A stretch of 64,000 nt of DNA. It comes from Bacillus sp. F19. GTDB lineage: Bacteria; Bacillota; Bacilli; Bacillales; Bacillaceae. Within the stretch, counting starts at the first letter, position 1, and every line of letters starts with the position of its first letter. Below the pieces are notes generated by a model, which was given only the letters and a program-made list of their open reading frames with translations, was not told where the DNA came from and made no database searches. Made by a program: the position numbers and the translations under genes. Where the stretch lies: positions 1,328,001-1,392,000 of the forward strand of contig CP085710.1 of assembly GCA_023823795.1 (NCBI GenBank). The letters run 5' to 3'. Below, piece after piece: positions 11,092-25,730 of this stretch.

Positions 11092-11547
11092 TTAATCTGA
11101 ATAAAATGGTTTATATATTTTTGGGCCTTTAAATTTTTTTGAGAAATTAATTAAACTAACAATTTTATTGATAGATCCTGCAAAATCTCTTTTTAAGTCA
11201 TGTTCCCATACTCTCAGAAGATGCCACTGCTTTTGTATATAGTAATTGTTCACTTCAAGATCCCTTTCTTTATTTCTATTGAATTTTTTTATCCAGAATA
11301 ATTGATTTTTTTGAGGTAATGTTCCGTGAAATTCGCAAGCATGACAAAAACAAGAGTCAATAAATATTACAATTTTATATTTCTTAATAGCGATATCAGG
11401 GGTACCAAATAATGATTTACCGTTTTTTCTGAATCTAAAACCCCTATGCCAAAGTTCTTTTGAGACTATTGATTCTCATTTTGTATTTTACCCCTTTATA
11501 GAACCCATGATTTTCTTTCTATTCTCTTCTGAATTGTTTTTAACCAT
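11092..11547 (-). pseudogene. vsr: vsr mismatch endonuclease, inactivated by two stops
   Basis: The minus-strand frame reads as a full-length very-short-patch repair endonuclease: an IMGSIKG start, FGTPDIAI with the metal-binding Asp, VIFIDSCFCHACEFHG with the zinc Cys/His cluster, then NKERDLEVNN and LRVWEHDL. Vsr nicks T:G mismatches left by deamination of 5-methylcytosine and accompanies C5-methyltransferases, here the adjacent one. Two in-frame stops interrupt it: TAA at 11488-11490 (codon 20) and TGA at 11476-11478 (codon 24), in a stretch where NTK-E-like residues are expected. No usable restart follows upstream of the active-site motifs. The rest of the frame is intact, so the inactivation is recent or read through. 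Confidence 0.85.
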
Positions 11548-11855: not shown

Positions 11856-13073
11856 ATGAAAGTAATTGAACTTTTTGCTGGAGTAGGTGGATTCAGACTT
11901 GGATTAGAAAAAACTGGTCATTTCGAAGTGGTATGGGGAAATCAGTGGGAACCAGCTAAAAGAGCTCAGGATGCATTTAATTGTTATTCAAAAAACTTCA
12001 GTGGTACAGGTATTCATTCGAATGAAGATATTTCTCAAGTAAATACACAAGAAATTCCAGATGCTGACTTATTAGTTGGGGGATTCCCTTGCCAAGATTA
12101 CTCTGTTGCGAGAACTTTGTCCGGAGAACAGGGTTTAAAGGGGAAAAAAGGTGTTTTATTTTGGGAAATTAAACGAATTATTCAAGATAAAATGCCTGAA
12201 TTTGTACTTCTTGAAAATGTAGATAGACTATTAAAATCACCATCTAGCCAAAGAGGAAGAGATTTCTCTATTATGCTTGCTACATTTAGAGATCTGGGAT
12301 ACAGCGTTGAGTGGAGAGTTATCAATGCTGCTGATTATGGATTTGCTCAAAGAAGAAGAAGAGTATTTATTTTTGCATCTAAACTAGAAACTAATTATGG
12401 ACAAGCTATTAAAGATAAAGATAAGAATGATTTATTATTTAAAGAAGGTTTCTTTGCTGATGAATTCCCTGTTTTACCAGTGGCTTCAGAAAAACATAAA
12501 CCACTGGAACTAACTCTACCTTTAGATCTAGTGGAAATTTCTGATACATTCAGCACCAAATTTTTAAATTCAGGTATTATGATAAATGGTCAAGTATACT
12601 CTGTGGAATTACTACCTATAGAGACACAACCTACACCTTTAATTGATATTTTAGATTTAATGGTTGATGAAGAGTACTATTTAACCACATCTAACATTGA
12701 AAAATTTAAATTCTTAAAAGGTGCAAAAAAGATTGAACGTACATCCTCAACTGGACATAAGTACATCTTTTCAGAAGGTGGAATGGCATTTCCAGAACCA
12801 TTAGATAAACCAGGAAGAACAATGTTAACTAGTGAAGGAACTGTTAACAGGAGCACCCATGTTGTGCAAAATCCTTTTGATGAAGAAGGACGTCTACGCT
12901 TCCTTACACCCGACGAATGTGAAAAACTAAATGGATTCCCGGCTGGTTGGACTGATACTGGAATGTCTGAGAGAATGAGATATTTTTGTATGGGTAATGC
13001 TTTGGTTGTTGGGCTAATTGAAAAAATGGGTAGAAAAATTCATGAAATTGAAAAAACACATAGTTACAAATAG
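11856..13073 (+). CDS. DNA (cytosine-5) methyltransferase, probable GATC type
   Basis: A 405-residue C5-cytosine methyltransferase, the modification half of a type II R-M system. Motifs appear in order: I (ELFAGVGGFRLGL, 5-17), IV (GGFPCQDYSVA with catalytic Cys79), VI (ENVDRLLKS, 120-128), VIII (QRRRRVFIFA, 165-174), a target-recognition region of about 200-330, IX and X (CMGNALVVGLI near 380). The convergent partner is a Sau3AI/MutH-like nuclease, so GATC with methylation of the C is the likely specificity; this is inference from the partner. The ribosome site (AAAGGA about 14 bp before the ATG) is weak. The stop codon lies inside the left arm of the shared terminator. Confidence 0.92.
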   Translation: MKVIELFAGVGGFRLGLEKTGHFEVVWGNQWEPAKRAQDAFNCYSKNFSGTGIHSNEDISQVNTQEIPDADLLVGGFPCQDYSVARTLSGEQGLKGKKGVLFWEIKRIIQDKMPEFVLLENVDRLLKSPSSQRGRDFSIMLATFRDLGYSVEWRVINAADYGFAQRRRRVFIFASKLETNYGQAIKDKDKNDLLFKEGFFADEFPVLPVASEKHKPLELTLPLDLVEISDTFSTKFLNSGIMINGQVYSVELLPIETQPTPLIDILDLMVDEEYYLTTSNIEKFKFLKGAKKIERTSSTGHKYIFSEGGMAFPEPLDKPGRTMLTSEGTVNRSTHVVQNPFDEEGRLRFLTPDECEKLNGFPAGWTDTGMSERMRYFCMGNALVVGLIEKMGRKIHEIEKTHSYK

Positions 13074-13122
13074 AAAGAGCTGCCAACTGAAGTGAACCCA
13101 AAAAGTTAGACACTTTATTTAC

Positions 13123-13908
13123 TTAGGCAGCCTTGAGGGCATGAATCCGGTAATCAACCGGGCTCATGCCTTTTAATTTTACCTTGATTCGTTGATGATT
13201 GTAGTAATGGATATATTCTTCTAGTTCTTGTTTGAAATGCTCCATGCTTTTAAATTCTTGAAGATAGAGTAATTCGGATTTTAATAAGCCAAAGAAGTTT
13301 TCAATGACCGCATTATCGAGACAATTTCCTTTGCGTGACATGCTTTGTGTAATGTTATGTTTTTTCAAATCATGCGAGTATTGTTTCATCTGATAATGCC
13401 AGCCCTGATCTGAATGGAGAATGGGTGAATCTTTCGATTCCAAGCGATCAAAGGCTTTATCCAGTATTTTGGAAACGAGCGGATAAACAGGCCGAGATTC
13501 GATATTATAGGCGATGATTTCTCCATTAAACAGGTCAAGAATGGCCGATAAGTATAGTTTCTCCCCAGCTATATGGAATTCTGTGACGTCTGTCACCCAT
13601 TTTTCATTGGACTTTGCCGCCTTGAAATCACGTGCTAGAATGTTGGGCGCAATCTTGCCGATTTTCCCTTTGTACGAACGGTATTTCTTCATGCGAACCA
13701 ATGACTTCAATCCTAATTCATTCATCAATCTGAGAACTGTTTTATGATTGATGCGAGCACCTCGATTACGTAATTCTAGGGTGATACGCCGATACCCATA
13801 ACGCCCTTTATGCGTTTGGAAAATCTCTTTGATAAGGGATTTAATTTCTGTGTATTTATCCTCACGCCCGAAGGCGTTTACCCAATAATAGTACGTACTC
13901 CGTGCCAT
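13123..13908 (-). CDS. IS150-group transposase OrfB (DDE integrase domain)
   Basis: Catalytic half of the IS3-type transposase, 261 residues from the first ATG, with the rve integrase fold. It contains the HTH_21-like segment HKGRYGYRRITLELR, the first catalytic Asp in KWVTDVTEF, the second in ILHSDQGWHY and Glu in NAVIENFFGLLKSEL (DDE). The frame is open upstream of 13908 to the slippery site, so OrfB is probably made mainly as an OrfAB fusion by -1 frameshifting and not from its own ATG. Confidence 0.9.
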   Translation of the reverse strand: MARSTYYYWVNAFGREDKYTEIKSLIKEIFQTHKGRYGYRRITLELRNRGARINHKTVLRLMNELGLKSLVRMKKYRSYKGKIGKIAPNILARDFKAAKSNEKWVTDVTEFHIAGEKLYLSAILDLFNGEIIAYNIESRPVYPLVSKILDKAFDRLESKDSPILHSDQGWHYQMKQYSHDLKKHNITQSMSRKGNCLDNAVIENFFGLLKSELLYLQEFKSMEHFKQELEEYIHYYNHQRIKVKLKGMSPVDYRIHALKAA

Positions 13909-13961
13909 TTTAGAAATGGATAGAAGCAGATTTAAATCAAATTGTTTCCTTAGTTCATGGA

Positions 13962-14471
13962 CTACTTTCGCTTTTTCTTTTTTTGTAAGGCATCCTTTTC
14001 TTGAACTAAGGCATTCAACTTTTTTAGATAGGCATTCTCTGCACGTAAGTATTCTAATTCGGCAAGAAGTGCTTCTTGAGAGCCATTAGCTGGCGATTTT
14101 TTCTTAGTTTCTTTTTTCATGGATAGACGCCCCTTTTTCTTTGGTTTAAGGGCGTCTATACCTCCTTCCTTAAACTGATTTGCCCAATTCAAAAGTGTAG
14201 AATCGGAAGGAAGGTTATAGTGTACAGCGGTCTCGTTGATCGATGCCCCATATTCGTTCATATATTTAAGTACCTCTAGTTTAAAGGGCAGAGTGTAATT
14301 TGTATAGGATGAAACAAGTCCTTCCATCCCATGTTTTAGATAGCGAGCGACCCATCTTTTCAGAGGGGATAAACCTACATTTCTTTCTTGAGCAATGGAT
14401 TTATAGGATTTTTCCCCTTCTAAGTACTCTAAAACTGCATGTGATTTTTCGTCTATCGTATATTTAGTCAA
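13962..14471 (-). CDS. IS150-group OrfA (helix-turn-helix protein)
   Basis: DNA-binding subunit of about 170 residues with two helix-turn-helix repeats (AVLEYLEGEKSYKSIAQERN, then NETAVHYNLPSDSTLLNWAN), a basic linker KPKKKGRLSMKKETKKK and a C-terminal leucine-rich coiled coil (LLAELEYLRAENAYLKKLNAL) for multimerisation. The preferred start is TTG 14471 with GGAGGT 9 bp upstream, inside the element. It ends in a Lys-rich tail encoded by the frameshift signal. Confidence 0.88.
   Translation of the reverse strand: MTKYTIDEKSHAVLEYLEGEKSYKSIAQERNVGLSPLKRWVARYLKHGMEGLVSSYTNYTLPFKLEVLKYMNEYGASINETAVHYNLPSDSTLLNWANQFKEGGIDALKPKKKGRLSMKKETKKKSPANGSQEALLAELEYLRAENAYLKKLNALVQEKDALQKKKKRK
13977..13983 (-). 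promoter_or_regulatory. Programmed -1 frameshift site
   Basis: On the minus strand the heptamer A-AAA-AAG sits in the orfA frame just before its end. Slipping back one base continues as KEKAKVVHELRKQF into the orfB frame, which is how IS3 elements make the OrfAB transposase. Confidence 0.8.
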
Positions 14472-14538
14472 AAAAACTGCACCTCCAATTGTTAGATGTT
14501 GTCTAACAATTGGGGTGCAGTTCAAACGACAGCTCTTT

Positions 14539-15867
14539 CTATTTGTTGAAATTAACCTGTTCTAGTAGATAACTATTGTTTAGCCAAAAACATTTTTTTA
14601 CTATATTGTCACCGTGAGGTGTTGGATAAGTATCTTCCCTGTTTCTCGCATGGGGTCTCACATGGCATACTTTGTTATCGCTACTTTTTGGTAAATCGTC
14701 TGATTTCCCCAGATTTATTCTATTAACTGTTTCTTCCCAAACAGATTTAACTTCATTTTCTAAATCAGAAAGTGGAATATTCCAGAACATTGATCTTTCA
14801 AAAAGATATTCTCCAACTTCATTTTCCTTAAAAACTACAAAAAGGAATCGTGTTTCTAAAAACATATTTCTTAATGTGCTTGTCTCCCACGTTTCCTTAA
14901 TAATGTCTAAATACTTAAAGGTAGGAAATGACATACTCTCTTTTATTTTACCATTTTTTTGAATTCTGATAGCTTTTATTTTTGTATTTGATTTTAAAAA
15001 TTCTTCTGTTTTATTTAAATCAGTTAACTCGCCATTTAACATTTTAGCAGCAACTAAATAAGTTTTACCCTTAGAATTATTCGAGACACCAAAACGAGTG
15101 CTTAAGTTGACCAGAGTCTCTCCATAATAATTGCTATAAGCTTTAATAATGAATTCTTCTAAAGAATCTTCTAATTTGTCAGTAATAGTTTGATAAGTAA
15201 CATTTTTCTTCAATATATATTCATTTAAAATAAATGTCATATATGAAGATTTTAAACTAAACGCCCGTTGCATAGCTTTAATTGAAGATTTCGGCTGTTT
15301 TCTTAAACTATGTTTATTTGCCCCTTTAGTGCAAGCACCCAAATAACTTGTTTCAGATTCTGATAATTCATGTGCTAATCCTTTACTGACTTTATCTACT
15401 ATTTTTTTCCAATCGTCTTTAATTATTTGTAGGTCTTTTTCTGGGAAACTAAACAATTGTGCGTGTGTGATTTTGAAATCACTTCTATTAGTTTCTTTTT
15501 CATACAAATAAAAGATTAACAGTAACAATTTATTTTTATTCCAGAAAGAACTAGTTTCAAATTTTTCATAAATCAACTTTTCATAATCAATAATATTTAA
15601 GACTAATCGCTCTTTTGAAGAATACTTTGATTTTCTTACTTTTTTATAAGGTGTCAGCTTAAGTTCAACGCCGGCTTCTACAAAATCTGGTCCAGAGAGG
15701 CTGTTAGGTTTATAGCCGAAATGATGTTTTTCAATTAATTGCCCCAATCCACCTTTATTAGTAGATTTTTTTAAATCTGAAGCAGGAATAACTTCATAGA
15801 AACTTTTATTTTCTAGTACTTTTGCGTGTAATTCTATAGATTTAGCGTTAAAAATATCGTATTTCAT
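14539..15867 (-). CDS. Sau3AI/MutH-like type II restriction endonuclease
   Basis: A 442-residue restriction enzyme of the Sau3AI/LlaKR2I group, which cleaves GATC. The N-terminal MutH-like domain has the active-site array Asp61, Glu68-x-Lys70 in GPDFVEAGVELK, preceded by KGGLGQLIEKHHFGYKPN. The C-terminal half, from about residue 220, is predicted by family knowledge to be a second, catalytically dead MutH fold used for allosteric DNA binding. Length agrees with Sau3AI (about 490). It is convergent with the C5-methyltransferase and shares its terminator. It has AT-rich codon use like the rest of the island. The 318-bp space to dptF holds its promoter. Confidence 0.88.
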   Translation of the reverse strand: MKYDIFNAKSIELHAKVLENKSFYEVIPASDLKKSTNKGGLGQLIEKHHFGYKPNSLSGPDFVEAGVELKLTPYKKVRKSKYSSKERLVLNIIDYEKLIYEKFETSSFWNKNKLLLLIFYLYEKETNRSDFKITHAQLFSFPEKDLQIIKDDWKKIVDKVSKGLAHELSESETSYLGACTKGANKHSLRKQPKSSIKAMQRAFSLKSSYMTFILNEYILKKNVTYQTITDKLEDSLEEFIIKAYSNYYGETLVNLSTRFGVSNNSKGKTYLVAAKMLNGELTDLNKTEEFLKSNTKIKAIRIQKNGKIKESMSFPTFKYLDIIKETWETSTLRNMFLETRFLFVVFKENEVGEYLFERSMFWNIPLSDLENEVKSVWEETVNRINLGKSDDLPKSSDNKVCHVRPHARNREDTYPTPHGDNIVKKCFWLNNSYLLEQVNFNK

Positions 15868-16185: not shown

Positions 16186-18522
16186 ATGTCTAGTCATTCA
16201 TTTGAATTTATCCAAAATTTGAATCCTGACTTATCTCAGTTAGGAATGATTATTGACAAAATTTTCTATGCGGATCCGCATGGAGTGTTAGTTAAAGGAA
16301 GGTTATTCGCAGAGCAGTTGTCAAAAGATGTAGTAAAACGTGAAGCGGGATTAGAGAACCTTCTTTATGTAAGACAAGTTGAAAGAATTGACGGATTAGA
16401 AAAAGAAGGATTATTAACAAATGAGATTGCTAAATCATTCGACTCCATACGTTATTTAGGAAATCAAGCTTCACATAAGAATAGTAATTTTGACCTGGAA
16501 ACAGCATTAAAAATGCATAAGAACTTATTCAAAGTGGCTGTTTGGTATATGGAAGTTTATGGTGACTATGAATTCGTGCCACCTAACTATCAGCATCCTT
16601 TATTTAAGGAAAAAGGTTTTAGTAATGAAGAACTAGATGAATTAATAGATAAGAAATTGTCTAATCAGCTTAAAGGATTTCTAGATTTAAATAATAGAAA
16701 AATCAGATTGAATACTATATCAGATATAGATATTGAAAATAGAAATTCTAAAGAAGATACTCATCAAACCTTAGAAAAAAAGGCGAAAATTAGTGGAAAT
16801 GTATTACATGGTAGTAGCTTAATTTATGAGTTATCAAAATTAAAGGAATCTTCTCAAGAAGCTGTGGAAAACGAAAAATCATTTAGTTCTTTTAAAACAT
16901 ATCTTCATGTAGAGCGTCCAATTCAAAACAACATGTATGAAGCTTTAAAGACCTCTGAGAAAAGTAATGTATGCCAGTTGATAATACTAGGTGGAAGTGT
17001 TGGTGACGGTAAGTCACATTTACTTGCTTATATGAATAACACATACCCCGAAATGATGAAGAAGTTCACTATTCATAATGATGCAACGGAAAGCTTTAAT
17101 CCTACAAAAAACTCATTAGATACTTTAGATGAGGTTTTAAAGCCTTTTTCAGATGATTACATTGATAATTCAATTGATAAACAAGTGTTAGCGATTAACT
17201 TAGGTGTACTGCATAATTTCCTAGAATCAAATTATGCAAAAGAAAGTTATACAAAATTAAGTGAATTTATTAATAAATCTGATGTGTTTAATTCAAACAG
17301 CATATCTAAAGATGTTACAGATGAAAATTTCCATTTAATTAGTTTTAGTGACTTCCACACGTTTGAGATTACAAATCAAGGTCCTAAGTCGACATATTTT
17401 AAAGAACTTTTCAACCGTATTACTTCTGAATCAGAGCTTAATCCATTTTATCAAGCTTATATAAAAGATCTCGAAAATGGATATAAAGGTCATGTTATGA
17501 CAAACTATCAGCTTTTTAAGAGAGGAGAAGTACAAGAAAAAATATCTCAATTGTTAATTCAGGCCCTAATCAAACATAAATTAATTATTTCAACAAGGGC
17601 TCTTTTAAATTTCATATACGATATCATTGTTCCAGCAAATTTAGAAGATAATTTGGTCTTTTCTTCCGTAATTGATGAGACGGAATTTTTACTTCCAAAC
17701 TTGCTTTTTGGTAGTAAAGACCGATCTCTTTTACTACAAGTACTTTCTAAATTAGATCCAATTCATGTTCGATCAAAAGAAATAGATCAATTATTGATTG
17801 AGTTAAATAACAGTCACAATGTATCAGATGTTTTTAAATCACAAATAACATCAAATGGTATTGAAGTTTGGATCGATTCTCTAGAAGAGCTAGGACCTTT
17901 TTATGAACTCAGCTCTGCAACAAGAAAAATATTAAATGTATCAATGATTCGGATGGGCTGGTGCCTTTCATCAAATTTAGAACATGTATTCTCTGACTCA
18001 GTATATAAAAGTTATATGACATCTCTATATGCATTTAATACAGGAGACCGTTCAGGACTAATATCTATATATAGAGATACTCTAAAAGCTATTTTTGAGT
18101 GGAAAGGTCAACCAAAGAAAAATACTTCATACATTTATTTAGATGACACTGCAGAAACGATGAAAATTGCTCAATCATTACAACTAAAGCCATATATAAA
18201 ACATCTTCAAGTAGACGTAGATGATGTGCTTAATCGTTTTAAAAAGACGTTAGTGATAGGGTTTCAAGATCAACAAGAAACATTTTTTGAACTACTTGAG
18301 ATAGATTACCCACTATATGAGAAAATTTTAAAAGTTTTAGATGGATACCGTCCTAATAAAAAGGACAAAGATGATGCTATTCAATTTGTTGAGTTTATTG
18401 ATAAGTTAATGAAACTTGGAAGTAGAAAAGAACAATTACTTATCCATCATTCTAATGAAAATTTGAACTTTAAATTAGAGTATGATTCATTCTTTGGACA
18501 ATTTACATTCACGAGGGAGTAA
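16186..18522 (+). CDS. dptF: DptF, phosphorothioation-dependent restriction ATPase
   Basis: First gene of a dptFGH restriction operon that in known systems attacks DNA lacking phosphorothioate marks laid down by DndABCDE. The P-loop GSVGDGKS (residues 270-277) is followed by HNDATESFNPTKNSLDTLDE and LAINLGVLHNF, the characteristic DptF ATPase sequence. At 778 residues it is, from memory, clearly longer than typical DptF (about 500-560). The first 130 or so residues (SQLGMIIDKIFYADPHGVLV, then RYLGNQASHKN) resemble the DUF4145-like domain at the N-terminus of type I restriction subunits. AGAGGTGA precedes the ATG. DptG follows after 2 bp. Confidence 0.85.
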   Translation: MSSHSFEFIQNLNPDLSQLGMIIDKIFYADPHGVLVKGRLFAEQLSKDVVKREAGLENLLYVRQVERIDGLEKEGLLTNEIAKSFDSIRYLGNQASHKNSNFDLETALKMHKNLFKVAVWYMEVYGDYEFVPPNYQHPLFKEKGFSNEELDELIDKKLSNQLKGFLDLNNRKIRLNTISDIDIENRNSKEDTHQTLEKKAKISGNVLHGSSLIYELSKLKESSQEAVENEKSFSSFKTYLHVERPIQNNMYEALKTSEKSNVCQLIILGGSVGDGKSHLLAYMNNTYPEMMKKFTIHNDATESFNPTKNSLDTLDEVLKPFSDDYIDNSIDKQVLAINLGVLHNFLESNYAKESYTKLSEFINKSDVFNSNSISKDVTDENFHLISFSDFHTFEITNQGPKSTYFKELFNRITSESELNPFYQAYIKDLENGYKGHVMTNYQLFKRGEVQEKISQLLIQALIKHKLIISTRALLNFIYDIIVPANLEDNLVFSSVIDETEFLLPNLLFGSKDRSLLLQVLSKLDPIHVRSKEIDQLLIELNNSHNVSDVFKSQITSNGIEVWIDSLEELGPFYELSSATRKILNVSMIRMGWCLSSNLEHVFSDSVYKSYMTSLYAFNTGDRSGLISIYRDTLKAIFEWKGQPKKNTSYIYLDDTAETMKIAQSLQLKPYIKHLQVDVDDVLNRFKKTLVIGFQDQQETFFELLEIDYPLYEKILKVLDGYRPNKKDKDDAIQFVEFIDKLMKLGSRKEQLLIHHSNENLNFKLEYDSFFGQFTFTRE

Positions 18523-18524
18523 CT

Positions 18525-19907
18525 ATGGATTATAATCAAAATCTAATTGAATTAAGACGGTATTTAGGAGTTAAACCAGATAAAAAAGGATTGACTCATA
18601 ATATAAATAAACATGCTCCTTATTTTCCATTTCCGACTAGAGCTTCGGAGCGTGCTAGGTTCGCCAGGGGTTTCGATGGTGTAGTAGGGGAGTTCACTAG
18701 ACTTGTCAGTAATCATTCATTAAAGGAAAAAATTGAAATCGAAGATATCATTAAGGGAATTAGTGATAAAGTACAAATGGATATTCATGATACACCCTAT
18801 TTTCAAAGATTAATGAAATTGTATCTTGCTGACAATCATTCGTCTATGAAAGTCTTCCATCCACATATTTTTCAATATTTTCAAAGGACAGAAGGAGATG
18901 AAGGAAAAGGTGAAGCAGAAATAGCTCTATTACTTAGGGATATTTATATTAAAAGTAATGAATCCATTCGGTCAATGTTTGCAAAAGGAAATTCTGATCA
19001 TGTAATATCAAAATTGATACTAGATCAGCTTGATTATTTAGTAGTAAAAGAAAAAGCTAATAAATATGTTGGTAAATTACCTCATATTACAGACCTGTTT
19101 AATGAAGATATTTCATATTTAGCTAAATATCCTGAATATTTTACTGTCAACTTAAGTCTTTTCTTATCATATTATTATTTCTTTTACATTTCACAGCTTT
19201 CATTAAAGCTTAGTCAAAAGTTTATTGCAGATTCTTCTAAAGTGAATGAACTGTTTTATATGTTGGATTGGGAAGGTCCAGGTAAAAGTAGGAAAAGCTA
19301 TACTAAAGGATATAATTTGATAAAAGATTCTTTAAGAAATTTACTTATACAGGTAAATACACTAGAACATGTGAATTCTCTTCAAGGTACACATGGTTTA
19401 TCCTATCCAGAGTTGGTAGATTTTTATAATGGAATTTCAGTTATTGAACAAACAGAGTTAAGTAATGTATTAACTAATTGGATACTTGAATATAGAGGTT
19501 TAATGGAATTGGAGCAGATAAAAGAGTTACCAGAAAAATATGACGAATTAATCATTTCTTTATACAACAGTATTGAAGAAGTTCATACAAAATTACCAAC
19601 TAAACAAGGAACAAAGAGTAGGTATTCATTATCTTTAGAACAAATTGGGAAAAAATACTTCCTTAAAACAAGGGGTTCTTTGGGTTATATGTTAAATATA
19701 AAACAAGAATTATTATTGTTAATTACAACTGTTGTGGTAAAGGATGAAAGAAAGTCTTTAAAATCGGTATTTGAAGGACTAGAAAAAAGAGGTCTTTTTT
19801 TTGATAGATACTCAAAGGAAGGCATAGTTGAACTTTATGATAAATTAAATCTATTGGATAAAAAGAGTGATAGTGGAGATGCCCAATATGTTAAACCAAT
19901 TTTATAA
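18525..19907 (+). CDS. dptG: DptG, phosphorothioation-dependent restriction protein
   Basis: Middle gene of the dptFGH operon, 460 residues, the normal size of DptG. It has no recognisable catalytic motif; the sequence is helical throughout, with a hydrophobic tyrosine-rich stretch (FLSYYYFFYISQLSLKL) near residue 210 that is more likely a packed helix than a membrane span. The assignment rests on the N-terminal region (NINKHAPYFPFPTRASERARF), length and position between clear DptF and DptH genes. GAGGGAG precedes the ATG, 2 bp after the dptF stop. The last 20 bp overlap dptH, a sign of tight translational coupling. Probably a scaffold or DNA-binding subunit. Confidence 0.8.
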   Translation: MDYNQNLIELRRYLGVKPDKKGLTHNINKHAPYFPFPTRASERARFARGFDGVVGEFTRLVSNHSLKEKIEIEDIIKGISDKVQMDIHDTPYFQRLMKLYLADNHSSMKVFHPHIFQYFQRTEGDEGKGEAEIALLLRDIYIKSNESIRSMFAKGNSDHVISKLILDQLDYLVVKEKANKYVGKLPHITDLFNEDISYLAKYPEYFTVNLSLFLSYYYFFYISQLSLKLSQKFIADSSKVNELFYMLDWEGPGKSRKSYTKGYNLIKDSLRNLLIQVNTLEHVNSLQGTHGLSYPELVDFYNGISVIEQTELSNVLTNWILEYRGLMELEQIKELPEKYDELIISLYNSIEEVHTKLPTKQGTKSRYSLSLEQIGKKYFLKTRGSLGYMLNIKQELLLLITTVVVKDERKSLKSVFEGLEKRGLFFDRYSKEGIVELYDKLNLLDKKSDSGDAQYVKPIL

Positions 19908-22900
19908 TTATTTATCTGACAAGCTAATTCAATTTTTCCAAGGACAATCTTTAGAAGGTGGAGAACGATACTACCTTCAATTTGAAGATGAAAAACAGGT
20001 CTCAGATTTATATAAAGTCTTAAAAACGAAAGACATTGCAGCGGATTTTGATTATCAACATAAATTAGGTTCTCCATATTCTACATTTTCACTGAATTTT
20101 GGTGAATTTAGAGTAGTAGTAGCTGCTACAATAGAGAATGTTACACCTGACTTTCTTGTGACTTTACGAAATGAAGTCGGAGAACAAAAAGATAAATGGT
20201 CTAAAACGGCACTTCTTAGTATTTGTCATGAAACTCTTGATAGTATTCGAGGTGGGAGTAGTGATCTGCAAAAAGAAGGATTGCCCTTCCATGTAAAATC
20301 TATCACAAAGAATTTAAAAAAAGAAATTGAAAACTCAATATTATCAAAATCAGAAAAAGAGGTTGCTCAGTTTTATTTGAATCAAAAATTAGAAGACATG
20401 ATATTGCAACCAGCTCTTTGGGATTTTGCAGAAGTATTGGCATTGTTATCTCAAGGTAAGATAAAAAAAGAAGATTATCCAAATCTAGGTGTCTTCTATG
20501 ATGAAAACCTTGAGCAGTATACTCCATCTCAAATTCGAAAAAGATTACAAGAAAACCACGAGTTTTTTGAAAAGATTCAGCATTTCCATGAATATGAAAA
20601 CTTAAGTCAACAACTTGAAAAGCTCTTCGATGAGAGAGGAGTTACACGACTTAAGAAAGAGGATTGGAAGGAAGAATCCTTTGTCTTTATTAAAGAATCA
20701 AATGAACGTAACCAGCCTGTAAGAAAACCTTTAGGGTATATTGGATCTAATAAAACAATAACTAAGGATAACCTTATATACTGGGACAAGGCTCAACAAG
20801 AAACGAAATCTGGATTACGGAAACGTCATATTATCATTTTTAATCCTGAAAAATATGAAGGTATTGAAATAGATTTTGAATTCGATCAGACGTTGAAAAA
20901 AGAGTTTATTCATATTAAAAATCGTGATATCTGTACAGTTTCTGGTAAGAAATTAAAATTGAATATACCGACTAATAAAGATGAAGTAACGTTCCAAAAA
21001 GTAGTTTATACACATGAAAATGATTCGAAATCAAAGTATGAGTTTCATATTGCAATTGTAGGATGTGTATCTGAGGTATTACAAGGAATCAAAACCTATT
21101 ACGAAATTAATGTAAAAGAAAAACAAATTATCATTAACAACAAAGGTGAAGCTATTGTTTTCGGTCAAAATATTGAGTCCCCTACTGAGATTGTTTTAGA
21201 TGAGGATGACCTGACTGTAGCTGTATCATCTCATATGGAAGGTATTAAAATATCTTCTTTATCACCTGCCTGGGGTGATGGAATTTTAAGTTTTTATTTA
21301 GCATTAAATGATACCAAAATCCCTTTTGTTGCAAAGGACTTAATAATACGATCAGCACCAGTGTTAGGAAAAAGAATTTGGAAGCTAAAGAGGGAATATC
21401 AAGCACATTTTCAATATGTAAATAAAAAGCTTCAGCAAGGGACAAGAGAATATTATCCTCGAGACGAATTCAAAGAGTTCTTAGAATATGAACAACTTTG
21501 GATTCAAAATGGTTATAAATTTGCTTTAAAATCAATTAGTGGTTTAGAGGAAATTCCTTTGGAACTACCAGTTAATCTATTGAATGCTTATTTATCTTTA
21601 GTCTCTTTTTATCGCGAAAATAATCTTTTACCAAGCTTAGCTTATATGGACCAGACACTTTTACAACTGTCAAGGGAATATCTCCAGGCGTTTAACGATG
21701 AAATTTCATCCATTGAAGAGAATAAAATTCCTAGCGATAATCAATTATCCATTTTGAAGCTAGGTACAGTAGAAGAAACTGGTCAAATTCTACTTACACC
21801 ATTGCATCCTATTAACGTGGCCTATCAAGTTGCAATTAACGAACATATAGGAAACGAAGAAATTGAAACTCACATATTGGATAGATTACAGCCGCATAAC
21901 TTACTTCCATATATGTACGGTAATAACGATGAATTGTTTCGTCCTTTAATGGTGAGTGACGCTTGGGAATGGACTACATATCAACCTGTTAAGAAGGTTG
22001 CGGTGGGTCAGTCAAATGAATTTTTGGCTAAAGTGATTGAAGAAAAAGTTATTCAATTTGTTGATCATTTTAATTATCTTTTTGTTCCTGAAGCGAAATC
22101 ACCGCTTAAAATAAATGTTATTCAAATTTCAAATGATGAGGAAGTATTAAAAGGATTTATTAATTATTTGAAAAAACAAATTGAAAAAAATGGACCACAA
22201 AAAGTGGTTCCAATTGAAGTTGCTTTATTTAATGGAGTGGATGTAATTAGTTCTTTTGAACAATTTTCACTTCTTGACGATGTAAATGAGGTTCAGGACA
22301 AGTATAAAATATCGTTTGAATCAAAAAACATAGATCCGGTCGACTTACTTAGGATTATTAGAGAAAAAATTCATTATTACAAATTAAGTGACGAGGGTGA
22401 ATATCAATACGCTCATATATCATTCTATAAAATGAACACTCAAGATGCAGAAGCGAAAGATAATATGGATGAGATAGAGACTGGTTTATCCTTGAATGGT
22501 TTATTATCATCTGTAACTTCTGTAGCGGGAAGAAAAGATTATCGAACGGGTTTTGGAACCAAAAATGTACTGTTAAATGAAAATTTATTAATAAAAACTG
22601 CCAAAAGTATAAATGAGTTGGCTTCTAACCTTGAAAAGGGCGGAGTAAATCCTTATTTAAAAAATAAAAGTATTGTTACGAGAACTTCTGCGATGAGGGA
22701 AGAAGTACTAGATAAGTTATATGACTCGTCTTATTGGGTTACTTTTATTGATCCTAACGTTGGATTAGATTTTTTCCAGAAATCAAAGAGAGAGTTACTC
22801 GTCATTCATTATAGTGATCAGTTTAATTCATCAGATCAATATGTGGCAATAACTGTAACCGATAAAGCCAATCAATATAGAAATGTAATAAAACAATATT

Positions 22901-25077
22901 TACAGGAAAATAAAGTTACAGCAAGAAATGAAAATATAGATGACGCTATTCGAGCATTTAATACTATAAATGGAGAATGGTTATTACGAGTTATTGGAAG
23001 TAAAGGACATTTCTCTAGAGAGAAAGTGAGTATTATTTCAGCTATTAAATACTCTTTAAGTTATTTCTATCATCCTAATATTGTCTGGGTACCAATATCG
23101 CTCGAAGAAATATTGCGCGTTTCTGGAGCAGTGAAATTAAGCAAAAGTGAAGGCGTTTTTACCGCAAAAAACCTAGGAGTGAAAGGGTCTCATAGCGATG
23201 ATTTACTGCTTATTGGTTTAGAAATAACAGATGAGGATAAACTCTATCTGCATTATTATCCTATTGAAGTGAAAATAGGAATTAATCAAGATTCCGTGAT
23301 TACTAAAGCAAAAGACCAAATAAGAAAGACAAAATATTTATTAGATAAAGAACTTAGAAAAACAGATGAAGAAGGAAAACGTGTATTTACAAATAAGTTC
23401 TTCAGAAACTTTTTTATTCAGCTGTTTTTAGCGAATTCTCAAAAATTTATTATGAATAACATTTGGCCAGAGAGCTCATATAAGGTTATAGATAAAGTAA
23501 AAGCTCGGTTATTAAATGATGATTACGAGGTAGGACATCATTTAACACCTTATATAGGAAATGGAGCCGTATTATCTTTTAGAAAAGAGGCTACTTGGAG
23601 ATCTTCCAAGATTGAAGAAAATGTCCTAATATTAGAGCTTACTGAAGAAGATGCATACACTGGTGTTGTTGAAGAAATTGAAGTAATTAAAGGAAGAATT
23701 CAATCTGGAAATACAGATATTCGAAAATCTATTTTGCTGTCTAATAGACATAGTGATGGGGTTATTGATGAAGATTATGATGATTCATTATCAACTTTGG
23801 AGACGGATAAACCTTCCAGTAAAGAAGATGATAATGAGTTTTTACCCACAGATAAAATTGAAGGTAATGACAAACCTATTAATAAAGACGTGGTTGAAAT
23901 TGAAATACCAATAATAAAACCAAAGCCGAGCAAAGAATTATCAAAAGTAAGAGTTTTATTAGGAAATGCTGAGGGTTCTACTAAAGATGTATATTGGGAA
24001 TATGGACATCCACAATTAGCAAATAGACATATTCTTATATCTGGAAAATCTGGACAAGGTAAATCCTATTTTATTCAATGTATGTTAATGGAATTATGTT
24101 CACAAGGTATATCTAGCATTATTTTTGATTATACCGATGGATTTAAAAAATCCAAACTTGAGCCAGAATTTAAGGAACAATTAGGCGATAAAATAGAACA
24201 ATTTCTTGTTGCACGTGATAAGTTCCCTATCAATCCTTTTAAGCGGAATCAAAAAGAATTGGATGAAGATGAATATATTCAGGAAGACTTTTCAGATGTT
24301 GCAGAAAGAATGAAAAGTGTTTTGGCTTCTATTTATAAGGATTTAGGAATTCAACAACAAAATGCAATTTATCAGGCAATTATGCGTGGAATGAGTAAAC
24401 ACGGCGATAACATGAATCTTGAGAAACTACGCGAGGAATTAGACCAGGATACATCAGGGCCTGCTAAAACTGCACTTTCTCAGCTGAATCCTATGATAGA
24501 CAAAAATCCATTTAATCATATTAAACAATATGATTGGGCTGAATTAGAGGAAAAACAAGGAAAAGTATTTATTATCCAACTAGCTGGATTTACTCGTGAT
24601 GTTCAACTTATGATAACAGAATTTATATTATGGGATTTATGGTACTACAAGCTGCAATATGGTAGACAGAACATACCATTACCAGTAATTCTAGACGAAG
24701 CCCAAAATCTAGATCATGGTGAAAAATCACCAAGTGCCAAAGTTTTGACAGAAGGTCGTAAATTCGGTTGGTCAGGATGGTATGCTACTCAGTTCTTAAA
24801 AGGGTTGCTTTCCACAGATGAAATTTCAAGACTGCAAATGGCGAGCCATAAAATCTATTTCGCACCACCAGACTCAGAAATAAGCAGCATTGCTTCTGTA
24901 CTATCTCATGATGCAAATTCCCGAAAAGAATGGGAAAAGGCTTTAGCTTCGTTACATAAAGGCCAGTGTATTTCCTACGGTCCAATGTTAATGGAGGATA
25001 AATCTTTGAAACAGGTTAAGCCGATAATAATTGATATTGCTACATTAACAGAAAGAATAAAAAGAATGAACCCTTAA
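19888..25077 (+). CDS. dptH: DptH, HerA-like translocase with nuclease-like motif
   Basis: Last and largest dptFGH gene, about 1729 residues. The C-terminal third is a HerA/FtsK-type ATPase with Walker A GKSGQGKS (1386-1393) and Walker B PVILDEAQNL (Asp1603, Glu1604). Upstream, HSDDLLLIGLE and PIEVKIG (Asp1104/Asp1105, Glu1127, Lys1129) fit a PD-(D/E)XK nuclease core. An acidic, low-complexity linker lies near 1290-1345. The N-terminal 1000 residues have no recognised domain. ATG 19888 with GGAG 9 bp upstream is preferred to GTG 19867; it overlaps dptG by 20 bp. By analogy it would translocate and cut unmodified DNA with DptF and DptG. Confidence 0.85.
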   Translation: MLNQFYNYLSDKLIQFFQGQSLEGGERYYLQFEDEKQVSDLYKVLKTKDIAADFDYQHKLGSPYSTFSLNFGEFRVVVAATIENVTPDFLVTLRNEVGEQKDKWSKTALLSICHETLDSIRGGSSDLQKEGLPFHVKSITKNLKKEIENSILSKSEKEVAQFYLNQKLEDMILQPALWDFAEVLALLSQGKIKKEDYPNLGVFYDENLEQYTPSQIRKRLQENHEFFEKIQHFHEYENLSQQLEKLFDERGVTRLKKEDWKEESFVFIKESNERNQPVRKPLGYIGSNKTITKDNLIYWDKAQQETKSGLRKRHIIIFNPEKYEGIEIDFEFDQTLKKEFIHIKNRDICTVSGKKLKLNIPTNKDEVTFQKVVYTHENDSKSKYEFHIAIVGCVSEVLQGIKTYYEINVKEKQIIINNKGEAIVFGQNIESPTEIVLDEDDLTVAVSSHMEGIKISSLSPAWGDGILSFYLALNDTKIPFVAKDLIIRSAPVLGKRIWKLKREYQAHFQYVNKKLQQGTREYYPRDEFKEFLEYEQLWIQNGYKFALKSISGLEEIPLELPVNLLNAYLSLVSFYRENNLLPSLAYMDQTLLQLSREYLQAFNDEISSIEENKIPSDNQLSILKLGTVEETGQILLTPLHPINVAYQVAINEHIGNEEIETHILDRLQPHNLLPYMYGNNDELFRPLMVSDAWEWTTYQPVKKVAVGQSNEFLAKVIEEKVIQFVDHFNYLFVPEAKSPLKINVIQISNDEEVLKGFINYLKKQIEKNGPQKVVPIEVALFNGVDVISSFEQFSLLDDVNEVQDKYKISFESKNIDPVDLLRIIREKIHYYKLSDEGEYQYAHISFYKMNTQDAEAKDNMDEIETGLSLNGLLSSVTSVAGRKDYRTGFGTKNVLLNENLLIKTAKSINELASNLEKGGVNPYLKNKSIVTRTSAMREEVLDKLYDSSYWVTFIDPNVGLDFFQKSKRELLVIHYSDQFNSSDQYVAITVTDKANQYRNVIKQYLQENKVTARNENIDDAIRAFNTINGEWLLRVIGSKGHFSREKVSIISAIKYSLSYFYHPNIVWVPISLEEILRVSGAVKLSKSEGVFTAKNLGVKGSHSDDLLLIGLEITDEDKLYLHYYPIEVKIGINQDSVITKAKDQIRKTKYLLDKELRKTDEEGKRVFTNKFFRNFFIQLFLANSQKFIMNNIWPESSYKVIDKVKARLLNDDYEVGHHLTPYIGNGAVLSFRKEATWRSSKIEENVLILELTEEDAYTGVVEEIEVIKGRIQSGNTDIRKSILLSNRHSDGVIDEDYDDSLSTLETDKPSSKEDDNEFLPTDKIEGNDKPINKDVVEIEIPIIKPKPSKELSKVRVLLGNAEGSTKDVYWEYGHPQLANRHILISGKSGQGKSYFIQCMLMELCSQGISSIIFDYTDGFKKSKLEPEFKEQLGDKIEQFLVARDKFPINPFKRNQKELDEDEYIQEDFSDVAERMKSVLASIYKDLGIQQQNAIYQAIMRGMSKHGDNMNLEKLREELDQDTSGPAKTALSQLNPMIDKNPFNHIKQYDWAELEEKQGKVFIIQLAGFTRDVQLMITEFILWDLWYYKLQYGRQNIPLPVILDEAQNLDHGEKSPSAKVLTEGRKFGWSGWYATQFLKGLLSTDEISRLQMASHKIYFAPPDSEISSIASVLSHDANSRKEWEKALASLHKGQCISYGPMLMEDKSLKQVKPIIIDIATLTERIKRMNP

Positions 25078-25087
25078 TAAAAAATAT

Positions 25088-25121
25088 TGGAGCTGAAAAA
25101 TTTTCAGCTCCATTTTTATTT
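25088..25121 (+). terminator. Terminator of the dptFGH operon
   Basis: TGGAGCTGAAAA (25088-25099) and TTTTCAGCTCCA (25101-25112) form a 12-bp stem followed by TTTTTATTT. It starts 10 bp after the dptH stop. Confidence 0.9.
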
Positions 25122-25217: not shown

Positions 25218-25730
25218 TTATTTAACTGGGTTATACGATTTTATTAAGCCATACCTATTTGACCAATCGTAAATATAATCTTTAATTTCTTTTACCCGAA
25301 TATTTGCACTGCACTTACCGTCTCTCTTACCTATCATTGAATTCATTTTCATAACTTCCTGTATTAGTCCTAGATATTCATCATACTCATAACTATCGTT
25401 ATATCCCGGATTTAACCAATGTAAATAAATGAAATAGTCTTTATTTGCAAAGAATTTTAATGTATCGATAGCGCTTTTTTTATACTGTATCGAACATAGT
25501 ACAATATTGGGATCATACCCTACTTGAATAATATCTTCAACTTTCTTTTCACGTTCCTGAGAAGAACCATTTATAAGAAAAACTTTTGTAAACGCTCCTG
25601 TTTGCAATTTCAAATCTCTTTCAGACTTCTGTGTTGTCCTAATATTCGGATCGTTAAATAATGTTTTCCATGTTTCGGATTTTCCAGAGTTTCTATTTCC
25701 AAGAACTGCAATAAGTAACCTTTCATTCAT
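25218..25730 (-). CDS. Small P-loop NTPase of unknown function
   Basis: A 170-residue protein with an N-terminal Walker A GNRNSGKS (residues 11-18) and a hydrophobic strand before it (LLIAVLG), as in small GTPase-like or shuttle P-loop proteins. A Walker B-like strand may be NIVLCSIQY near 75-83. No GTPase NKxD motif is visible. AGGAGGTGG lies 5 bp before the ATG. It is convergent with dptH and AT-rich like the island, so it may be a cargo gene of the defence island; a role in defence is only inferred from position. Confidence 0.6.
   Translation of the reverse strand: MNERLLIAVLGNRNSGKSETWKTLFNDPNIRTTQKSERDLKLQTGAFTKVFLINGSSQEREKKVEDIIQVGYDPNIVLCSIQYKKSAIDTLKFFANKDYFIYLHWLNPGYNDSYEYDEYLGLIQEVMKMNSMIGKRDGKCSANIRVKEIKDYIYDWSNRYGLIKSYNPVK

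Follow-up and report, generated by a model that had tools for sequence, protein, structure and literature searches.

What keeps a complete dptFGH restriction operon from damaging a host that lacks the genes for its self-mark? DndFGH is reported to translocate along and nick DNA that does not carry its mark, the complex of E. coli B7A being a 2:2:1 assembly with translocation and nicking activity (PMC10470545), and to harm cells without phosphorothioate (PMC11662687); because of that harm, a substitute safeguard is to be expected in hosts without Dnd. The question is posed by a stretch of 64,000 nucleotides from Bacillus sp. F19, the whole of which we call the window. A preliminary description had claimed here a complete dptFGH, in a tight operon with its own terminator and without dnd genes beside it, and the following features bear this out.

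16186-18522, plus strand: dptF, full length, 778 aa (TIGR03238, 354 bits, cut-off 50)
18525-19907, plus strand: dptG, full length, 460 aa (TIGR03236, 190 bits, cut-off 20)
19867-25077, plus strand: dptH, full length, 1736 aa (TIGR03237, 885 bits, cut-off 621)
25088-25112, plus strand (scored on both strands): terminator-like hairpin closing the dptFGH operon, an 11-bp stem then TTTTTATTTA
25218-25730, minus strand: small protein 3' of dptH, 170 aa, with a P-loop-like GNRNSGKS near its start

All three subunits exceed their curated cut-offs in the gene order F-G-H, with 2 nt between dptF and dptG and a 41-nt overlap of dptG with dptH; DptH also matches the PADLOC DndH profile at 1780 bits. The core of DptF (residues 233-769) has an intact P-loop, GSVGDGKS at residue 270, DptG matches the DptG of PDB 7exx (E 2.4e-22), and DptH combines an intact P-loop at residue 1393 and an intact nuclease motif, SDD(1110)...EVK(1134), with a C-terminal HerA-type ATPase domain (DUF87). 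Going by its family, DptFGH is probably a translocating, nicking machine. DptF begins with a DUF4145/HsdR-like region (residues 2-226), the DUF4145 part of which we take to be HEPN-like. We considered this N-terminus as a special feature and rejected it, long DptF open reading frames (735-808 aa) being present in genomes with and without dnd; the two short ones in the order survey described below (592-593 aa) are both from dnd genomes. The hairpin, a stem followed by a T-run, lies directly 3' of the dptH stop; a terminator scan returned 8 terminator-like sites against 6.0 expected, and the call at this position rests on its place and length. The 170-aa protein matched no family in three family libraries and did not recur among the neighbours of Dnd-less loci in the order survey.

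No dnd product, DndB and DndE included, was found among the ten proteins examined around dptFGH. In the 100% complete genome, which comprises two contigs and 5.59 Mb, neither DndC nor DndD has a match; these are the two proteins for which we ran the genome-wide search that the preliminary description had proposed. The single gene of this genome with a PAPS-reductase domain (PF01507) is cysH, beside a sulfate permease. Phosphorothioate from dnd or ssp genes located elsewhere in the same genome would agree with the experimentally studied DndFGH homologues, which depend on phosphorothioate (PMC10470545, PMC11662687), but a complete genome that lacks both DndC and DndD and has PF01507 only in CysH makes this explanation, raised for dnd genes in the preliminary description, extremely improbable, and we set it aside. 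Given the same absences, dptFGH probably does not need phosphorothioation by Dnd, and the complex in the window would be independent of it.

The Dnd-less state is not peculiar to this genome. Among 397 genomes of the order, DptF scored above cut-off in 30, of which 17 had both DndC and DndD above cut-off and 13 had neither, and this survey, likewise proposed earlier, did turn up dptFGH without dnd; in one of the 13 (G187) a DndC-like gene scores 206 bits, below cut-off. On the DptF tree of the 30 genomes the dnd label changes 2 times, where shuffling gives 10 changes on average. Scanning GTDB genomes with a DptH alignment gave 79 loci among the matches listed, 48 of them Dnd-less, of which 45 were checked genome-wide (37 directly, 8 via order-survey genomes) and three (L154, L170, L192) locally. 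When 74 of these 79 loci and five order-survey rows are placed on a DptH tree, the 30 dnd-linked rows make up one side of one branch. A DptF tree of 96 rows (46 dnd, 50 Dnd-less), which includes more divergent dnd rows and omits identical rows, rows without a DptF open reading frame longer than 500 aa and G630, where DptF is broken, shows 3 changes of the dnd label. Both trees were built with FastTree and carry local support only. All 50 Dnd-less rows were checked genome-wide for DndC, with a match below cut-off in two (G187 and L194); the DndD check covers the 30 order-survey genomes. The DptFGH of the window is placed among the Dnd-less lineages, outside the dnd-linked groups, and on these trees Dnd-less dptFGH is evidently a lineage and not an accident.

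Some further observations belong with these surveys. DndC-like proteins of 206-211 bits, below cut-off, occur at G187:C13 (L049) and G431:C5:41299-42468, in genomes that are Dnd-less and carry the Sau3AI pairing treated below. Five dnd-linked genomes (G006, G108, G702, G678 and G647, loci L085, L084, L258, L259 and L268) have a DptH of only 1326-1358 aa, some 400 aa below the usual length and possibly without the HerA-type domain. An archaeal dptFGH in Methanobrevibacter (L172:3500-17449) has three tandem dptG-like genes and an N6/N4 methyltransferase directly after dptH. Eight plasmid records have a relative of DptH; in viral contigs no relative was found.

The neighbours named in the preliminary description are also in place, a Sau3AI-type restriction-modification (R-M) system on one side of the operon and the small P-loop-like protein on the other, together with an IS3 element, absent from that description, which separates the nuclease from the methyltransferase.

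11092-11253, minus strand: Vsr mismatch endonuclease gene, likely a remnant, 53 aa (HMM of linked Vsr proteins, 46 bits)
11856-13073, plus strand: C5-cytosine DNA methyltransferase of the Sau3AI-associated subfamily, 405 aa (TIGR00675, 257 bits)
13066-14546, minus strand: IS3-family insertion separating the convergent genes for methyltransferase and nuclease
14539-15867, minus strand: Sau3AI-family restriction endonuclease, MutH-like, 442 aa (NF040973, 507 bits, cut-off 300)

The methyltransferase has all of the motifs FAGVGG, PCQ, ENV, QRRR and GNA and is 50-66% identical to 10 other dptFGH-linked methyltransferases. The nuclease has the catalytic-type residues D61, E68 and K70 (D...ExK), which are invariant across 11 linked Sau3AI-family nucleases, and a profile built from these 11 matches Sau3AI itself (PDB 4pxg) at full length with 501 bits. 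Sau3AI cleaves GATC, and cytosine methylation blocks the cleavage (PMC5608340). Judging from their families, the nuclease of the window would cut unmethylated GATC and the methyltransferase would put m5C in GATC, the latter specificity being predicted from its family. The 53-aa Vsr-like remnant has no NCBIfam match; longer Vsr genes are present at several loci related to that of the window. The IS3 insertion has transposase matches at 13123-13908 and 13962-14525 and 47-nt inverted arms at 13066-13112 and 14500-14546, and the arms extend to the ends of the methyltransferase and nuclease genes, both of which are still full length. The stretch from 11 to 25.9 kb has a GC content of 31.5%, against 39.2% in the rest of the window, and looks acquired. 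The Vsr remnant and the insertion in the same island might suggest that the operon is itself a decaying, functionless remnant, as might DptH in pieces (G147) or DptF and DptH in pieces (G630) elsewhere; against this, dptF, dptG, dptH and the nuclease and methyltransferase genes are all full length in the window with intact motifs, and we regard decay as very unlikely.

The preliminary description had treated the Sau3AI-type R-M system as an incidental neighbour, a view that is not supported: the system is a repeated neighbour of Dnd-less dptFGH, and none of the dnd-linked operons was seen with it. After F, G and H, the neighbours found most often at the 13 Dnd-less order-survey loci are a C5-methyltransferase (9/13), a Sau3AI nuclease (8/13) and Vsr (6/13); none of the 17 dnd loci has these neighbours within the flanks covered, which were about 20 kb at each of 16 loci and 4.6 kb in G157. 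G327 is a ninth case, where one contig end carries nuclease and methyltransferase and another carries dptH, and its linkage (L193) is made probable by the agreement of these ends with the gene order in its sister G379. Genome-wide, a Sau3AI nuclease above cut-off is present in 9 of the 13 Dnd-less DptF genomes, in none of the 17 dnd DptF genomes (p = 5e-5) and in 27 of the 367 other genomes of the order (p = 1.2e-7), and any C5-methyltransferase in 11/13 versus 6/17 (p = 0.01).

Among the 79 listed DptH loci, a Sau3AI nuclease adjoins FGH in 10 of the 48 Dnd-less and 0 of the 31 dnd-linked ones. The linkage was seen in Psychrobacillus (L163) and also in Periweissella (L169), where the best DptH segment of the linked Periweissella ghanensis locus is only 29% identical to that of the window. 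Priestia abyssalis (L122) and Peribacillus simplex (L123) have a BglII-family nuclease in place of the Sau3AI type; both nucleases match BstYI in PDB, and that of L122 also BamHI. The methyltransferase of L123, for all that its nuclease is of this different type, belongs to the same subfamily as that of the window (64% identical). The sites cut by BglII, BstYI and BamHI have GATC at their core. Counted over distinct DptF loci, a GATC-type R-M system lies beside 17 of 50 Dnd-less loci (15 Sau3AI-type, 2 BglII/BstYI/BamHI-like) and 0 of 46 dnd loci (p = 4e-6), a comparison in which flank lengths are unequal and several contigs short, so that absent neighbours are undercounted, the order-survey dnd loci covering about 20 kb in all and most Dnd-less ones about 40 kb, with the linked genes within a few kb; leaving out G327/L193, placed only by contig ends, gives 16/50 (p = 9e-6). 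A C5-methyltransferase is part of the locus in all 17 except L150, where the nuclease is 1.4 kb off with an integrase-like open reading frame between, and where the methyltransferase was found elsewhere in the genome, probably on the same contig.

In a class-level draw of 398 genomes of Bacilli, DptF scored above cut-off in 20 besides the window, 11 with DndC and 9 without, and R-M genes stood next to FGH in 0 of the 9 Dnd-less and 0 of the 11 dnd genomes (6 of the 20, and 4 of the 9, repeat earlier rows). With no such case among these 20 loci, the pairing appears concentrated in and near the order of the window, inside which, as judged from gene neighbourhoods, it is well supported. A count in trans is weak: of 33 unlinked Dnd-less genomes, 8 have a GATC-type methyltransferase of at least 500 bits, always with a nuclease match beside it, which set against the 27/367 for the nuclease gives p = 0.004, in a comparison that involves two different genes and mixed orders.

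The pairing also appears to have been assembled repeatedly. On the DptF tree the label for R-M linkage undergoes 8 changes, and on a nuclease tree of 38 rows (14 linked, without G327; two of the 24 unlinked loci, G218 and G076, carry dptH remnants) it changes 10 times, at least 9 of them forced, with linked nucleases scattered among unlinked ones. Gene orders vary (R-M-FGH, FGH-R-M and R-FGH-M), and FGH is separated from its nearest R-M gene by 33-640 bp in 13 of the 16 loci measured and by 33-1100 bp in 14, the distance being larger in L184 and L150. The evolutionary correlation of DptH is 0.98 with each of DptF and DptG, and only 0.36 with the nuclease and 0.27 with the methyltransferase (66 pairs, L184 excluded); the methyltransferase is the better conserved partner, at a mean identity of 0.58 versus 0.38 for the nuclease (13 loci, with only the larger DptH piece of L184 in the means). 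In G218 and G076, dptH remnants of 79 and 94 aa stand beside the Sau3AI R-M genes (L250:3880-4119 and L251:7370-7654), and no DptF was found in either genome; from such remnants it seems that dptFGH also gets lost. By counts and trees together, the recurrent linkage exceeds chance and common descent.

We tentatively hypothesize, at somewhat less than even confidence, that dptFGH here adds a second effector on top of GATC restriction and that GATm5C takes the place of phosphorothioate as the self-mark; with the same reserve we view the locus as a composite defence island, in which a phosphorothioate-independent branch of dptFGH has been joined to a GATC-type type II R-M system. The linked methyltransferase would place m5C in host GATC and the Sau3AI-type nuclease would cut GATC without it, while DptFGH would read the same GATC sites as the R-M pair and be kept off host DNA by GATm5C, in the role that phosphorothioate has in dnd hosts, such that invading DNA without GATm5C would face two effectors. 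A shared GATm5C mark would explain the GATC core common to partners of two unrelated nuclease folds, Sau3AI/MutH and BglII/BstYI/BamHI-like. Other methyltransferases within 10 kb of dptH are few at the 48 listed Dnd-less loci by HMM and motif screen: L171 (C5), L172 (N6/N4), L182 (HsdM) and L198 (motif, unconfirmed). A GATC phosphorothioate motif is known from the Dnd R-M system of B. marisrubri (PMC10470545), and this, like the better conservation of the methyltransferase than of the nuclease, speaks for the proposal. On the opposing side, 6mA in GATC is reported to give no protection from a GATC-type DndFGH, which bears on 6mA and not on m5C (PMC10470545), nuclease and methyltransferase correlate poorly with DptH, and no Dnd-less genome of the class-level draw had the R-M genes adjacent. 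The recurring R-M partner is a concrete and cheaply testable candidate for the missing self-mark.

It may be instead that DptFGH is autonomous, as proposed in PMC10853773, and cooperates with a GATC R-M system that is marked independently, no mark being shared: the nuclease would make cuts, and DptFGH would attack by way of ends, translocation or other infection signals. We consider this doubtful but a serious possibility. Of the 33 unlinked Dnd-less genomes, 21 have no C5-methyltransferase at all, which argues that DptFGH does not in general need GATm5C, and 14 of these 21 also lack a D12-class (Dam-type) methyltransferase above cut-off, for which reason we rejected Dam-type methylation as a general substitute mark; G244, a close relative of the window, has no C5-methyltransferase and a D12 match that is only partial (30 bits). 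In DptH 541-960, our own placement of the published target-recognition domains, R-M-linked and unlinked sisters diverge no more than linked ones do among themselves, and the altered target-recognition region that we looked for in R-M-linked lineages was not seen. A search for a DptH region that sets the dnd group apart from the Dnd-less relatives closest to it gave only 15 scattered sites. The recurrence of another nuclease partner also favours an autonomous DptFGH, HKD-helicase-DUF3427-type proteins lying near 10 of the 48 Dnd-less and 1 of the 31 dnd loci listed. Given the missing methyltransferases and the unchanged DptH region, a cooperating, separately marked pair is nearly as likely as a shared mark, although it leaves the one-sided bias of the type II partners toward a GATC core unexplained.

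That the two systems merely keep company, defence genes being prone to cluster or the R-M system stabilising a costly operon by addiction, is in our estimation unlikely. The low-GC island is of a kind with such an origin, R-M and FGH hardly coevolve, G218 and G076 keep the R-M genes with only remnants of dptH and no DptF, and outside the order the link was absent from the Dnd-less genomes of the class-level draw; yet no such GATC-type R-M system was seen in the flanks of the 46 dnd-linked loci, generic clustering would not repeatedly pick GATC types, and the distances between nearest R-M gene and FGH are mostly short. Returning to a shared methyl mark, the wider proposition that DptFGH has been untied from phosphorothioate, with m5C in GATC from the joined R-M system as the self-mark in one branch, is one that we would put forward as possible, on balance leaning to doubt. 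A shared mark would mean that a single large restriction machine is able to switch from one kind of mark, in the backbone, to another, on a base; without a shared mark, the pairing would still be a sign that type II restriction and a translocating nickase cooperate.

Other neighbours of Dnd-less dptFGH deserve mention in their own right. Proteins that join an HKD (PLD) nuclease, an SF2 helicase and DUF3427 occur at L057:9717-12878, L052:9490-12378 and L055:11680-14520 (domains checked in L057 and L055) and further at L148, L149, L168 and L197, some of them with a NUDIX protein, and four Exiguobacterium loci are included; they are a second candidate partner of Dnd-less dptFGH. McrBC-like AAA_5 and/or DUF2357/PDDEXK_7 genes lie near Dnd-less dptFGH at L051:12953-17033, L153:15285-16706 and L174:16351-17832.

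How does this arrangement compare with known systems? The preliminary description had suggested that dptFGH without dnd would be a new mode of defence, but DndFGH has already been published as a decoupled, standalone system by Rakesh, Aravind and Krishnan in 2024 (PMC10853773). Like the locus in the window, that system is dptFGH without a modification module, and as described there it has variable N-terminal additions to DptF, HEPN included, the DptF of the window having one as well (DUF4145). The same paper ties cytosine methylases to CxC-ATPase/DndE systems, and its main text makes no mention of Sau3AI, MutH, Vsr or GATC. A Staphylococcus epidermidis strain with both Sau3AI and DndFGH has been noted, with no link drawn in the text concerned (PMC10244729), and in the openly available literature, subscription papers, preprints and supplements lying outside its scope, our search recognised no paper that joins dptFGH to GATC R-M. 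What is new here is the recurrent GATC-type R-M system beside Dnd-less dptFGH; the Dnd-less state itself is known.

With DndBCDE-DndFGH (Dpt) the window shares the three effector families, their gene order, the intact P-loops and the nuclease motif, and it differs in having no DndC or DndD in the genome and a GATC-type R-M system as neighbour. From the Sau3AI type II R-M system it has the same nuclease and C5-methyltransferase families, here joined to dptFGH; of 24 unlinked Sau3AI nucleases, 21 have the same methyltransferase subfamily beside them within 1.5-kb flanks, and Vsr is found at 7 of the 24 in these short flanks. If our proposal of a shared mark is true, dnd and GATC R-M modules would be interchangeable mark-makers for one effector. 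Alternative pairings of mark and effector are likewise described for IscS-DndBCDE-DndI and DndCDEA-PbeABCD, which, as published, swap the effector and keep phosphorothioate, whereas the window keeps the effector and it is the proposed mark module that differs.
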